A program made the position numbers and the translations under genes. DNA of 64,000 nt from Pseudomonas sp. HMWF032. Lineage in GTDB: Bacteria; Pseudomonadota; Gammaproteobacteria; Pseudomonadales; Pseudomonadaceae. Within the stretch, counting starts at the first letter, position 1; every line of letters starts with the position of its first letter. Below the pieces are notes generated by a model. The model did no database searches. It had not been told where the DNA came from and saw only the letters and a program-made list of their open reading frames with translations. Of this stretch, positions 6,814 to 11,695 are shown piece after piece. The DNA is taken from NCBI RefSeq assembly GCF_003060885.1, contig NZ_QAIG01000005.1, positions 430,054-494,053 on the forward strand, in the 5' to 3' direction.

Positions 6814-9033
6814 CTAGAACAGATCGATGGGGTCTACGTCCAATGACCAGCGCACCGCACGGCCGCTGGGCATTTGTTCCAGTGCATGCATCCAAGTGTT
6901 GAGTAAGCGATGCAGCGGCGCGCGGGCGTTGGCTTGCACCAGCAACTGGGCGCGGTAACGACCGGCGCGGCGTTCCATCGGCGCGGGTACCGGCCCGAGC
7001 AGTTCGATGCCGCTGAGTTTCAGTTCATTCAACAACAACTCGGCTTCGGTGCAGGCGTCGTCGAGAAAGCCTTCGGCCTGACCGGGTTTATGCGCTTCGG
7101 CGCGCAGCAGGGCGAGGTGGCAGAAGGGTGGCAGGCCGGCACTGCGGCGTTCACTCAGGGCCTGTTCGGCGAAGGCGAAGTAGCCCTGTTCGGTCAGCTG
7201 CACCAATAACGGATGGTCGGCCAGGTGGCTCTGGATAATCACCTTGCCCGGCTCTTCGGCACGTCCGGCGCGACCGGCGACCTGCACGATCAGCTGGGCC
7301 ATGCGTTCGCTGGCGCGAAAATCCGCAGAAAACAGCCCGCCATCGGCATCGAGAATCGCCACCAGGGTCACTCGGGGGAAGTGGTGACCCTTGGCGAGCA
7401 TCTGCGTGCCGACCAGGATGCACGGCTCGCCGCGTTGTACGGTGTTGAACAGGGTGGCCATGGCTTCCTTGCGCGAGGTGCTGTCGCGGTCGACGCGCAA
7501 GACCGGTACCTCGGGGAAGAGAATTTCCAGGCGCTCTTCAGCGCGCTCGGTGCCGGCACCGACAGGGCGCAGGTCGACGTTGTTGCACTTCGGGCAGTTG
7601 CTCGGCTGGCGCTCGACGTGGCCGCAGTGGTGGCAACGCAGCTCGCGCGAACGCTGGTGCACGGTCATGCGCGCGTCACAACGCGGGCATTCCGACAGCC
7701 AGCCGCAGTCGTGACAGAGCAATGTTGGGGCGAAGCCGCGGCGGTTGAGGAATACCAACACCTGTTGGCCGGCTTGCAAGGTTTGTGCGATGGCCTGCTG
7801 CATTGGACCGGAGATGCCGGAATCCAGCGGTCGGCTTTTCACATCCAGGCGCAGAAAACGCGGCTGCTTGGCACCGCCGGCGCGCTCACGCAGGTGCAGC
7901 AGGGCGTAACGGCCACTGTGGGCGTTGTGCAGGCTTTCCAGCGAGGGCGTGGCCGAGCCCAGCACGATCGGGATGTTTTCCTGATGCGCGCGTACCACCG
8001 CCAGGTCGCGGGCGTGGTAGCGCAGACCTTCCTGCTGTTTATAGGAGGCGTCGTGTTCCTCGTCGATGATGATCAGCCCCGGCCGCTGCATGGGGGTGAA
8101 CAGCGCCGAGCGGGTGCCGATGATGATATCGGCTTCGCCATCGCGCGCCGCCAGCCAGGCGTCCAGGCGTTCACGGTCATTGACTGCCGAGTGCAGCAGG
8201 GCGATGCGCGCGTTGAAGCGCTGCTCGAAACGCGCCAGGGTTTGCGGACCGAGGTTGATCTCCGGGATCAGCACCAGAGCCTGTTTGCCGGCCTCCAGGG
8301 TTTCGCGGATCAGCTGCAGGTAGACCTCGGTCTTGCCGCTGCCGGTCACCCCGGCGAGAAGAAAGGCGTTGAAGCTGCCGAAACCTGAGCGGATCGCCTC
8401 GCTGGCCGCGCGCTGTTCGGCATTCAGCGGCAGTTCTGGCTGGGCCAGCCAGTTGGCGTGGCGCTTGCTCGGCGCATGGCGGCGTACGTCAACCTGAACC
8501 AGGCCTTTCTCCAGCAGCAGGTCGAGGCTGTCCTTATTCAGCTGCAGTTTGCTCAGCAACTGGTGGGCGACCCCGTGGGGGTGCTGCGCGAGGGTGCGCA
8601 GGGCGTCGCGCTGGCGTGGCGCGCGGATCAGCCGTGGGTCGTCGAGTTGCGCGCCGTCGCTCACCGACCAGAAACGCTCCTGACGCGCCTCGGCCGGTTC
8701 GCCCTGACGCAGCAGCACCGGCAGCGCCCAGTTCAGGGTGTCACCGAGGCTGTGCTGGTAGTACTGCGCGGTCCACAGGCACAGCTTGAACAGCGCCGAT
8801 GGCAATGGTGACTGGGCGTCAAGCAGGTGTAGGGCGGGCTTGAGCTTGTCGGCCGGCACTTCGCTGTGATCGGTCACTTCTATCAGGATGCCGATCATCT
8901 CGCGCCGACCAAACGGCACGCGCAGCCGCGCACCGGGCTGCAAGGCGCTGCGCGGCACACCGAGCGGGGCACGGTAGTCGAACAGGCGGCGCAGCGGCGA
9001 AGGCAGGGCGAGGCGCAAAATGACGTCGGGCAA
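6814..9033 (-). CDS. priA: Primosomal protein N' (PriA), replication-restart helicase
   Basis: The 739-residue protein has an N-terminal DNA-binding region, a Walker A motif in LAGVTGSGKTEVYLQ, a DEEH box (LIIIDEEHDASYKQQEG), and a zinc region with four CxxC pairs (LLCHDCGWLSECPRC, then LRCHHCGH and SNCPKCN). These are PriA hallmarks: a 3'-5' helicase that recognises stalled forks and loads the replisome through PriB/DnaT-type partners. Length fits the family (about 730-740). It is divergent from rpmE, with about 150 bases between the start codons, and is followed by dbpA on the same strand. Confidence 0.97.
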   Translation of the reverse strand: MPDVILRLALPSPLRRLFDYRAPLGVPRSALQPGARLRVPFGRREMIGILIEVTDHSEVPADKLKPALHLLDAQSPLPSALFKLCLWTAQYYQHSLGDTLNWALPVLLRQGEPAEARQERFWSVSDGAQLDDPRLIRAPRQRDALRTLAQHPHGVAHQLLSKLQLNKDSLDLLLEKGLVQVDVRRHAPSKRHANWLAQPELPLNAEQRAASEAIRSGFGSFNAFLLAGVTGSGKTEVYLQLIRETLEAGKQALVLIPEINLGPQTLARFEQRFNARIALLHSAVNDRERLDAWLAARDGEADIIIGTRSALFTPMQRPGLIIIDEEHDASYKQQEGLRYHARDLAVVRAHQENIPIVLGSATPSLESLHNAHSGRYALLHLRERAGGAKQPRFLRLDVKSRPLDSGISGPMQQAIAQTLQAGQQVLVFLNRRGFAPTLLCHDCGWLSECPRCDARMTVHQRSRELRCHHCGHVERQPSNCPKCNNVDLRPVGAGTERAEERLEILFPEVPVLRVDRDSTSRKEAMATLFNTVQRGEPCILVGTQMLAKGHHFPRVTLVAILDADGGLFSADFRASERMAQLIVQVAGRAGRAEEPGKVIIQSHLADHPLLVQLTEQGYFAFAEQALSERRSAGLPPFCHLALLRAEAHKPGQAEGFLDDACTEAELLLNELKLSGIELLGPVPAPMERRAGRYRAQLLVQANARAPLHRLLNTWMHALEQMPSGRAVRWSLDVDPIDLF

Positions 9034-9091
9034 GCGATGGGCTCCTGGTTGCAGGGCGCGATCTTAGCATGCAGCCGGTCGACGGCCGGCC

Positions 9092-9119
9092 TTGCGTCGC
9101 CGCGGTGCTCTGGTATTAT
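9092..9119 (+). promoter_or_regulatory. Predicted sigma-70 promoter of rpmE
   Basis: TTGCGT at 9092-9097, a 16-base spacer and TATTAT at 9114-9119, preceded directly by TGG, which fits an extended -10. It lies about 70 bases before the rpmE start. Prediction by eye only. Confidence 0.5.
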
Positions 9120-9189
9120 CGCCGGCCTATTTCCGTGCGGTACCTGACAATAGTGTCTGGTGGCGGCACGACAGCCCTGAGGAATCATC

Positions 9190-9405
9190 ATGAAAGCCGA
9201 TATCCACCCGAACTATGTAGCCGTCACCGCCACTTGCAGCTGTGGCAACGTGATCGAAACTCGCTCCACCCTGGCCAAACCACTGAGCCTGGACGTGTGC
9301 AACGAGTGCCACCCGTTCTACACCGGCAAGCAGAAAATGCTGGATACCGGCGGCCGTGTTGATCGCTTCAAACAGCGTTTCGGCATGTTCGGCGCCAAGC
9401 AGTAA
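9190..9405 (+). CDS. rpmE: 50S ribosomal protein L31, zinc-binding form
   Basis: A 71-residue protein starting [10 protein letters not shown], the standard L31 N-terminus. Cysteines at 16, 18, 37 and 40 (ATCSCGN and [11 protein letters not shown]) are those of the zinc-containing C+ form that bacteria use when zinc is plentiful; zinc-free paralogues lack them. L31 sits on the central protuberance of the large subunit. The start has GAGGA 8-9 bases upstream. A terminator hairpin follows within 80 bases, but it lies inside the next reading frame. Confidence 0.97.
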
Positions 9406-9431
9406 GCGTGCGCGCAGCGACGCAGGCCCAC

Positions 9432-10232
9432 ATGGTTTGCACCTCGCTACTGAAAAAGGCGTCCCTCGTGGGCGCCTTTTTCGTTTTCGGCGTTTATGCC
9501 GGCGGAGTGTTGGCGTTCTGCCCGGCGCCGGGCAACTTGCCGAGTGCCAAGGTGCAGCGCGTGGTGGATGGCGACACCCTGCGTTTGGTCGATGGCCGCA
9601 ATGTGCGCTTGATCGGTCTGAACAGCCCGGAAATGGGCCGCCAGGGCCGCTCTGCCGAGCCTTTCGCCGAGGCGGCGCGCAAACGCCTGCAGGCACTGGT
9701 GGCGGCCAGTGATGGTCGGGTCTCGTTGCAGTACGGCCAGCAGGCCAAGGATCACTACGGGCGCACCCTGGCGCACGCCTATGACAGCAGCGGGCGCAAT
9801 CTGGAGGCGCAGTTGCTCGCCGAGGGTTTGGGTTTCCAGGTGGCAGTGGCGCCCAATCTGGCGTTGGTGCAGTGCCAGCAAGACGCCGAGCGCAGCGCCC
9901 GGCAGGCCCGTACCGGGCTCTGGCAGCGTTCGCCGGTGCAAGCCGTCGAACAGTTGAGCAGCGGCGGCTTTGCTCTGGTGCAGGGCCAGGTTGAACGTGT
10001 CGAGCGCAATGGCGGCGGCCTGTGGCTGGAAATGGGCGATTCGCTGGTGCTGCATATCGCGCCCCGGGCGTTGGGCAATTTTGATCTGCGTGCTGTGCAA
10101 CGCCTTGAAGGCCGTAAGGTCGAAGCTCGCGGCTGGGTGATCGACCGCTCCAGGCGTGGCGGCTCGCGTGCTGGGCAGGCGCGCTGGATGCTGCCATTGA
10201 CCGATAAGGCCATGTTGGGTGTGCTGGACTGA
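9432..10232 (+). CDS. Secreted thermonuclease-family (SNase-like) protein
   Basis: A 266-residue protein. The N-terminus (LLKKASLVGAFFVFGVYAGG) is a plausible signal peptide with cleavage near VLA-FCP. The SNase core is visible: VQRVVDGDTLRLVDG, VRLIGLNSPE, then KDHYGRTLAHAY and LLAEGLG. Family members cleave single- and double-stranded nucleic acid with calcium; the catalytic-site context (DGDT, R in VRLIG, GRTLA) is present. The ATG at 9432 has AGG five bases upstream; the frame extends slightly further 5'. A strong intrinsic terminator lies within codons 8-17, so transcription reading in from rpmE may be attenuated here. Confidence 0.85.
   Translation: MVCTSLLKKASLVGAFFVFGVYAGGVLAFCPAPGNLPSAKVQRVVDGDTLRLVDGRNVRLIGLNSPEMGRQGRSAEPFAEAARKRLQALVAASDGRVSLQYGQQAKDHYGRTLAHAYDSSGRNLEAQLLAEGLGFQVAVAPNLALVQCQQDAERSARQARTGLWQRSPVQAVEQLSSGGFALVQGQVERVERNGGGLWLEMGDSLVLHIAPRALGNFDLRAVQRLEGRKVEARGWVIDRSRRGGSRAGQARWMLPLTDKAMLGVLD
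9453..9481 (+). terminator. Rho-independent terminator of rpmE, inside the nuclease reading frame
   Basis: AAAAAGGCG at 9453-9461 pairs with CGCCTTTTT at 9473-9481. An inner CCC/GGG pair closes a TCGT loop, with one bulged T. The T tract is formed by the distal arm. It lies 48 bases after the rpmE stop codon and overlaps codons of the nuclease signal peptide. Confidence 0.75.
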
Positions 10233-10355
10233 GTGACATCGTCACAAGGTGCTGTTAAACGTTTTCTCGAAGAGCGTGGGCTATCCCGCAAAGCCCGTTT
10301 CTTCGGGGGTAACGGCCCGTTTCTGGTGCGCCGTACGTAACCGGACTCGCCAGTC

Positions 10356-10385
10356 TTGTGCAGCTGTATACAACTTGCGTATCCT
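10356..10385 (+). promoter_or_regulatory. Candidate maeB promoter with TGTATACA palindrome
   Basis: TTGTGC at 10356-10361 and TATCCT at 10380-10385 are 18 bases apart, a weak sigma-70-like pair about 40 bases before maeB. The perfect 8-base palindrome TGTATACA at 10365-10372 falls between them, a typical place for a repressor site of GntR type. Both calls are tentative. Confidence 0.3.
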
Positions 10386-10426
10386 CGCCGCCTGCCTGTT
10401 CAACAGCCCCAAGCGGAAATGCCACC

Positions 10427-11695
10427 ATGTCTGATTTGAAAACAGCCGCTCTCGATTATCACGCCAATCCCCGTCCGGGTAAGTTGAGTGTCGAGCTAAC
10501 CAAGCCCACCGCAACCGCACGCGACCTGTCCCTGGCTTACAGCCCAGGTGTTGCCGAGCCAGTGCGCGAGATTGCGCGTGACCCGGAGCTGGCGTACCGC
10601 TATACCGGCAAAGGCAACCTGGTGGCAGTTATTTCCGACGGTACTGCGATTCTCGGCCTGGGTGATCTTGGCCCGCTGGCCTCCAAGCCGGTTATGGAAG
10701 GTAAGGGGGTGCTGTTCAAACGCTTTGCCGGCATTGATGTTTTTGACATTGAAGTCGAGTCCGAAAGCCCACAGGCCTTTATCGACACCGTTCGTCGCAT
10801 CTCGATCACCTTTGGTGGTATCAACCTGGAAGACATCAAGGCACCCGAGTGCTTTGAGATTGAACGCACGCTGATCGAACAGTGCGATATTCCGGTGTTC
10901 CACGACGACCAACACGGTACCGCTATCGTTACTGCGGCCGGTATGCTCAACGCCCTGGAAATCGCCGGCAAGTCCCTGCCGGACGCTAAAATTGTCTGCC
11001 TGGGCGCTGGTGCTGCCGCCATCTCCTGCATGAAGTTGCTGGTGAGCATGGGGGCCAAGGTCGAGAACATTTACATGATTGACCGCAAGGGTGTGATTCA
11101 CGCAGGTCGTGATGATCTGAACCAGTACAAGGCGGTGTTTGCCAGCGAAACCAGCAAGCGCACCCTGTCCGATGCGCTGGATGGTGCGGACGTGTTTGTC
11201 GGCCTGTCCGGTGCCAACCTGCTGGCCCCTGAAGATCTCAAGCGCATGGCGGCTAACCCGATTGTGTTCGCCTGCTCCAACCCGGACCCGGAAATCAAGC
11301 CGGAGCTGGCGCGTGAGGTGCGTAGCGATGTGATCATGGCCACTGGTCGTTCCGACTACCCGAACCAGGTCAACAACGTTCTTGGCTTCCCGTTCATTTT
11401 CCGGGGTGCGCTGGACGTTCGTGCGACCCGTATCAACGAAGAAATGAAAATTGCAGCGGCCCTGGCCCTGCGTGACCTGGCCAAGTTGCCAGTGCCGCAG
11501 GAAGTCTGCGATGCGTACGGTGGTATCGCCTTGTCGTTCGGCCCTGAGTACATCATTCCGAAACCGATGGACCCGCGCCTGATTACCGTAGTCTGTGATG
11601 CAGTGGCCAAGGCGGCTATCGAGAGCGGTGTGGCGACCCTTCCGTATCCGAAACACTACCCGCTGCAGTCGGTCAACGATGTGTTCAACGGCTAA
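10427..11695 (+). CDS. maeB: Malic enzyme, short NAD(P)-dependent form
   Basis: A 422-residue enzyme that oxidatively decarboxylates malate to pyruvate, feeding NADPH and pyruvate supply. The malic domain is visible ([51 protein letters not shown], then [12 protein letters not shown] with the metal-binding Asp pair). The C-terminal NAD(P)-binding domain has [13 protein letters not shown]. Unlike the long MaeB of enteric bacteria, it has no phosphotransacetylase-like C-terminal domain. The ATG at 10427 begins [12 protein letters not shown]; the frame is open further 5' but without family similarity. It ends at a strong shared terminator, convergent with the penicillin-binding protein gene. Confidence 0.93.

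Follow-up and report, generated by a model that had tools for sequence, protein, structure and literature searches.

A predicted rpmE terminator hairpin that also encodes part of the signal peptide of a neighbouring nuclease in Pseudomonadaceae

Introduction

How can a hairpin that looks like the transcription terminator of one gene lie within the coding sequence of the next? The question is raised by a locus of Pseudomonas sp. HMWF032 in which rpmE is followed by a gene for an SNase-family nuclease. The locus lies in a stretch of 64,000 nucleotides (contig NZ_QAIG01000005.1, positions 430,054 to 494,053, forward strand), which is called the window in this work and from whose first letter all coordinates are counted unless another contig is named. 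The initial annotation of the window had placed a strong rpmE terminator within the first codons of the nuclease gene and proposed that one sequence has to satisfy both RNA folding and protein export, and that ribosomes translating these codons could melt the hairpin and thereby attenuate the nuclease transcript. Here, we combined folding, codon statistics and comparison across Gammaproteobacteria to see how far these proposals hold.

Results

Arrangement of the locus

The features of the locus are as follows.

9190..9405, + strand: rpmE, encoding ribosomal protein L31 (PF01197, E 1.1e-31; NF000612), whose transcript the hairpin would end
9406..9452, + strand: spacer of 47 nt from the rpmE stop to the hairpin, holding the weakly initiated nuclease start codon
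9432..10232, + strand: ORF of the SNase-family nuclease with an N-terminal signal peptide (PF00565, E 4.3e-15); an alternative in-frame GTG lies at 9408
9432..9515, + strand: signal peptide MVCTSLLKKASLVGAFFVFGVYAGGVLA, from translation, with the cleavage site placed by eye
9453..9481, + strand: predicted terminator hairpin with a 12-pair stem and a 5-nt loop, equal to codons 8-17 of the nuclease (KKASLVGAFF)
9477..9489, + strand: T tract along the 3' side of the stem, broken up by CG; a 3' end is expected near 9482

The ATG at 9432 lies 26 nt past rpmE and opens a protein of 266 residues, which matches PF00565 with 56.5 bits against a Pfam gathering score of 21; the frame is open from either GTG 9408 or ATG 9432, and a malic enzyme gene follows downstream. 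Judged by eye, the N-terminus resembles a signal peptide, with a charged start, a hydrophobic core and an end at VLA/FC. The hairpin is made of the arm AAAAAGGCG (9453-9461), then TCCCTCGTGGG, and the arm CGCCTTTTT (9473-9481), after which CGTTTTC follows; it begins 21 nt after the start codon and 47 nt after the rpmE stop. Sequence, translation and folding all confirmed the overlap with codons 8-17 that had been annotated.

The hairpin as a terminator

A 41-nt segment with the hairpin folds at -21.6 kcal/mol (z -4.85; the hairpin itself at about -20 to -22), which none of 200 dinucleotide shuffles equalled. The stable G+C-rich stem and short loop of an intrinsic terminator are thus present, and the 12 pairs are kept in 99.8% of the aligned cells described below. 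The U tract is less regular: five T close the stem and CGTTTTC comes next. A simple terminator consensus scan missed the hairpin, because its T run is part of the stem and the 8 bases that come next hold only 4 T; the sole site that it listed in the region was at 10063, against 2.0 expected by chance. A search of Rfam gave nothing above the gathering score at the hairpin, the best match on the + strand being ctRNA_p42d with 25.2 bits against 50. The inner stem can be drawn in two ways, either with a bulged U and a CCC/GGG helix or as a continuous stem of 12 pairs that includes a U-G wobble and closes a loop of 5 nt. The former, a 9-bp outer part with CCC/GGG inside, had been annotated and is indeed the minimum free energy (MFE) fold of the segment, but the comparative data fit the continuous stem, which is therefore the drawing used here.

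Two constraints on one sequence

The core of the hairpin was compared in 128 nuclease loci of the family (67 distinct 30-mers), a 129th locus without the nuclease (L077) being excluded. It is exactly ten codons long in all 128. Given the amino acid, the synonymous entropy of the paired codons is 0.35, 0.37, 0.07, 0.20, 0.12, 0.07, 0.52 and 0.00 bits, against 0.95-2.10 bits expected for them from the same genes in the 128 loci. The loop codon is free (1.93 vs 1.80 bits expected), as is the final Phe codon (0.96 vs 0.97), in which the third base does not pair, and the flanking codons are reduced less (codon -4, 0.46 vs 1.75; codon 18, 1.59 vs 1.72), which is partly a small-sample effect. The frozen codons oppose gene-wide usage: the Phe codon is TTT in 127 of the 128 loci, and TTT makes up 38% gene-wide. 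Covariation points the same way, with 99.8% of 804 cells paired and two-sided changes at 5 pairs (20 cells); no shuffle among 500 scored as high, and structures slid along the alignment were paired in only 44-79%. Some compensating changes are silent on both sides (AAG/GCC to AAA/GCT, GCG/GGC to GCA/GGT). On a tree of the nuclease domain (127 loci, L116 excluded), the third base of the loop codon changed at least 50 times and any stem pair at most 16 times. In these 128 loci of Pseudomonadaceae, the idea that one sequence serves RNA folding and export at once is borne out by the entropy, the covariation, the ten-codon cores and the contrast with nuclease-less genomes given below.

Genomes without the nuclease

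In the genus, 30 genomes gave no nuclease match, and 27 of them have a true rpmE locus; the other three have no rpmE match or a paralogue only. The hairpin is kept in all 27 loci, in 26 by the detector and in the 27th (L077, which has a weak, spurious nuclease match) by the pattern. These loci show that the hairpin is retained for the sake of rpmE alone. In several of them the bases 3' of the hairpin still match the signal peptide of relatives, and we therefore read the absences as losses of the nuclease.

What happens to the stem after such a loss is informative. A U-A pair replaces the U-G wobble in 15 of the 27 nuclease-less loci, a change of GGC to GAC that would put Asp in place of Gly in the hydrophobic core, and in none of the 128 nuclease-bearing loci (Fisher 6e-14, with relatedness ignored). 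Hairpin lengths that are not whole codons occur in 6 of the 27. On the rpmE tree there were at least 13 changes in nuclease presence and at least 8 in the U-A allele; 5 contrasts were well supported, with a mean of 2.2 in the predicted direction and 0 in the opposite one; this is not significant. Taken together, these patterns suggest that coding for the peptide may have held the hairpin back from its best pairing.

One might ask whether protein constraint on KKASLVGAFF, together with codon bias, would yield the stem as a side effect. Shuffles by codon usage, a cruder test from which 13 loci were dropped, do often match the fold: the median z was -1.98. In the family, 77 of 135 loci had at most 10 matching shuffles out of 200 and the remaining 58 had more; in the order, 27 of 51 loci stayed within that limit. 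We nevertheless reject an origin of the stem by chance or by protein constraint alone and find it scarcely credible, in view of the dinucleotide shuffles, the low synonymous entropy, the covariation and the retention of the hairpin in nuclease-less genomes, as well as the other peptides and other hairpins found in other families.

Spread across genomes

The nuclease is present in 268 of 298 genomes of the genus and the hairpin pattern (up to 3 mismatches) in 291 of 298, with a reversed-pattern control of 0 in every listed genome. Samples of wider groups contain the nuclease in 128 of 148 family, 87 of 214 order and 88 of 229 class genomes, where the score limits of the searches differ and the loci read are samples. 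Within the family, the detector placed a terminator-like hairpin in the 5' part of the open frame, with a start upstream, in 126 of 128 rpmE-linked loci, a figure that is not fully unbiased in that 20 of the loci had been selected by hairpin variants; the genus counts are free of that choice. Control stretches of equal length further down the same nuclease genes gave 1 of 128. The two misses are L077, where the nuclease call is spurious, and L141, which lacks an upstream ATG, GTG or TTG. With the same detector, an in-frame hairpin with an upstream start was found in 45 of 56 rpmE-linked loci of the order (control 3/56); at class level the count was 52 of 68 loci (control 3/68). SNase genes unlinked to rpmE had the hairpin in none of six cases, of which the family sample supplied two and the order sample four. 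One of the two is a distant SNase-like paralogue in the window genome itself (L002, contig C3 of genome G000, 532824-533177), which has neither rpmE in its neighbourhood nor a hairpin ahead of it.

The codons of the hairpin are covered at least in part by a hydrophobic segment in 113 of 129 loci in the family (one more has no standard start), 34 of 56 in the order and 18 of 68 in the class. Among the other class loci, 26 of the 68 have the hydrophobic stretch 3' of the hairpin and an upstream start only, 9 have a possible start past the hairpin, 12 lack the hairpin and 3 have it before the open frame. On these comparisons the overlap is clear in Pseudomonadaceae and in most sampled Pseudomonadales, and beyond them it is apparently frequent but mixed: it recurs in many other gammaproteobacterial families with other hairpins and peptides, less uniformly. 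The 9 class loci just mentioned would fit the view that the nuclease starts 3' of an ordinary non-coding hairpin and that KKASLVGAFF is accidental. We give this view very little credence, since all but two family loci have a start upstream and a frame that stays open across the hairpin, the cores are exactly ten codons in every case, a hydrophobic segment overlaps the hairpin in most family loci and the Asp-coding base is absent from all 128.

The linkage of the nuclease to rpmE is itself strikingly stable (68 of 68 class loci, L231-L298; 56 of 60 order loci, L170-L229). We know of no functional tie between rpmE and an SNase-family nuclease.

Why coding sequence can tolerate the stem

In the nuclease frame, 0-based positions that sum to 28 pair with each other, so third positions face third positions and first positions face second ones. 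Lys (AA) faces Phe (TT), Ala (GC) faces Ala, and Ser or Pro (TC, CC) faces Gly (GG). Because third positions pair with third, silent changes can compensate one another. An A-tract, a GC-rich stem and a U-tract read in this frame would give Lys-Lys, Ala, and so on to Gly-Ala and Phe-Phe. Signal peptides show the same pattern of charge followed by hydrophobic residues. The overlap is probably tolerated because the in-frame terminator spells this pattern and the third-third pairing lets stem and peptide drift together. Among 62 other families with a hairpin that qualified, 46 have this register as the majority one, where chance would give one third, although these families are related and a p value would be only indicative. 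A bolder proposal would be that the rpmE terminator writes, and repeatedly rewrites, the export signal of the nuclease, with different terminators and frames across Gammaproteobacteria and mostly in the third-third register. We put it forward tentatively and would sooner bet against it, but if it is true, terminators are recurrent raw material for signal peptides, and the nuclease is a permanent read-through tail of a ribosomal-protein operon.

Other hairpins in the genome

The possibility that overlap of ORFs with terminators is a general habit of this genome was also considered. A single hairpin pattern has 156 matches per strand genome-wide, some of them overlapping, from which a sample of 33 distinct terminator-like hairpins, the one of the nuclease included, was checked for through-running ORFs. 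Stop codons are rare in AAAA/TTTT arms, so that many of these hairpins are crossed by an open frame through chance, and only the nuclease overlap looked genuine. The idea was rejected. The best other case (L306, 1500-1540, minus strand) is spurious: it is a hairpin between convergent ORFs whose in-frame reading, MEMKKAAQGSLF, arises by chance on the strand opposite a long ORF that we take to be citrate synthase. This case shows that A-tract/U-tract terminators easily give Lys...Phe peptides. The genome also has a region (L322, contig C2 of genome G000, 249200-250440) in which three near-identical 198-bp tandem units each carry tRNA-Met (CAT) followed by the same terminator-like hairpin.

Initiation at the nuclease start codon

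In 89 of the 128 family loci, 21 nt separate a start codon from the core; the rpmE stop precedes the hairpin by 20-58 nt (median 44). Shine-Dalgarno (SD) pairing is weaker for the nuclease than for rpmE in 66 of 88 loci, with medians of -4.1 and -5.9 kcal/mol; the nuclease is slightly better than random positions (-3.0). In the window the values are -2.6 for the nuclease and -6.1 for rpmE. By eye, a second small hairpin (AAAAGCCTTATGGGCTTTT) may form in the interval between rpmE and the terminator in a group of six loci (L053, L054, L065, L067, L068 and L070), with the nuclease ATG in its loop.

Discussion

Our preferred reading, which we regard as probable with appreciable room for doubt, is that the hairpin is the intrinsic terminator of rpmE, kept in frame as a signal peptide, and that a fixed leak through it yields the nuclease mRNA. 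Most polymerases would stop at the hairpin and leave an rpmE mRNA, and rare read-through would produce the sole mRNA able to encode the exported nuclease, so that the nuclease level would be a fixed small fraction of the ribosomal-protein transcript. Because the hairpin lies within the signal-peptide codons, every transcript that encodes the exported nuclease must cross it, wherever that transcript started. Weak initiation on the nuclease would limit useless translation of terminated transcripts that have no stop codon, which may be the reason for the weak site. In E. coli, according to the excerpted text of PMC4824070, a terminator placed 30 bp past the AUG of a translated ORF keeps all but about 10% of its efficiency, maximal efficiency (about 0.9) is reached once a terminator stands over 30 bp beyond an upstream stop codon, ribosomes are unlikely to reach the polymerase within the first 100 bp, and initiation on transcripts that end inside an ORF is described as wasteful. 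The weak SD sequence of the nuclease is consistent with the last point. These measurements favour a fixed read-through over an opening of the hairpin by translation or by a factor.

They bear directly on the translation-coupled attenuation proposed in the initial annotation, in which ribosomes that initiate on the nuclease or re-initiate after rpmE would melt the hairpin, and nuclease translation would control its own transcription. The geometry would allow it, with a start codon 21 nt ahead of the hairpin in most family loci and an rpmE stop close enough for re-initiation, and the excerpted text of PMC6045580 describes upstream-gene terminators that attenuate a downstream gene at ampC/frd and penA/nlpD1. 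As the main effect, however, this attenuation is unsupported: the loss of about 10% at 30 bp into an ORF and the low chance that ribosomes reach the polymerase within 100 bp (both from the excerpts of PMC4824070), the weak ribosome-binding site of the nuclease and an unsystematic look that noticed no antiterminator or pause element all speak against it. We regard it as unlikely, though worth keeping in mind, and translation may have a small effect on termination. A switch by conditional antitermination, in which a protein or RNA factor or the physiological state alters read-through and turns the nuclease on, appears quite unlikely. A widely conserved terminator within a gene would be a ready control point, and some loci have a second small hairpin around the start codon, but in the window no conserved extra element rose above the Rfam gathering score, and a regulatory structure around the start codon was rejected as a candidate, the spacer folding no better than its shuffles (z -0.98). 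Stable hairpins protect 3' ends, and this one might accordingly be mainly a 3'-end stabiliser, a processing site or a source of small RNA. We think this very unlikely, because its A-tract/U-tract layout is that of an intrinsic terminator, and it stays behind rpmE where the nuclease is gone, as a terminator would.

The leaky-terminator arrangement that we favour has relatives among known systems. At E. coli frd-ampC and Burkholderia pseudomallei nlpD1-penA, the terminator of an upstream gene likewise limits a downstream exported enzyme through read-through (PMC6045580, excerpted text), and the position of the hairpin inside the nuclease ORF would give the rpmE-nuclease locus a trait of the frd-ampC type, an upstream terminator that is crossed to express the downstream gene. 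The frd-ampC type also has the promoter of the downstream gene inside the upstream gene; at the rpmE-nuclease locus a crude consensus scan of 8800-10800 listed no sigma-70-like site. The penA hairpin, however, is untranslated and lies 25-73 nt before the start codon (excerpts of the same source), whereas that of the nuclease is inside the coding sequence and encodes signal peptide. Attenuators of the trp type and pyrBI also place a terminator over or after a short translated segment close to the 5' end, but no separate leader peptide, stall codons or alternative antiterminator were found at the rpmE-nuclease locus; what is likely to be translated ahead of the hairpin is the beginning of the nuclease, the MFE folds contain no competing structure, and a non-exhaustive look gave no sign of a leader-peptide attenuator. 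Transcript 3' ends within or early in ORFs, some of them intrinsic, have been reported for E. coli and P. aeruginosa (PMC7815308, PMC8297930), but the excerpted texts contain no case of a terminator and a signal peptide that are conserved together, and neither rpmE nor PA5048 appears in the main text of PMC8297930. Our search of the open-licence PMC literature found no account of an rpmE terminator doubling as a nuclease signal peptide. As in other RNA structures conserved within coding sequence, base pairing constrains synonymous sites here, but this hairpin belongs to the transcript end of a neighbour and pairs third positions with third.

One short sequence may act as a transcription stop, a protein export signal and, presumably, a control of expression level, in a compact and naturally repeated example that would explain how a terminator can be harmless within a coding region. 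The overlap also offers a clean test bed for the sensitivity of early-ORF terminators to translation, and it is a warning that sites of this kind escape any gene finder or terminator predictor from which coding sequence is excluded. As a minor observation, the Rfam family RF03157 (L31-Gammaproteobacteria ribosomal protein leader) has a weak match just 5' of rpmE, at 9134-9183 of the window (20.9 bits, below the gathering score of 33.2); if this leader is real, read-through into the nuclease would also be subject to L31 autoregulation.
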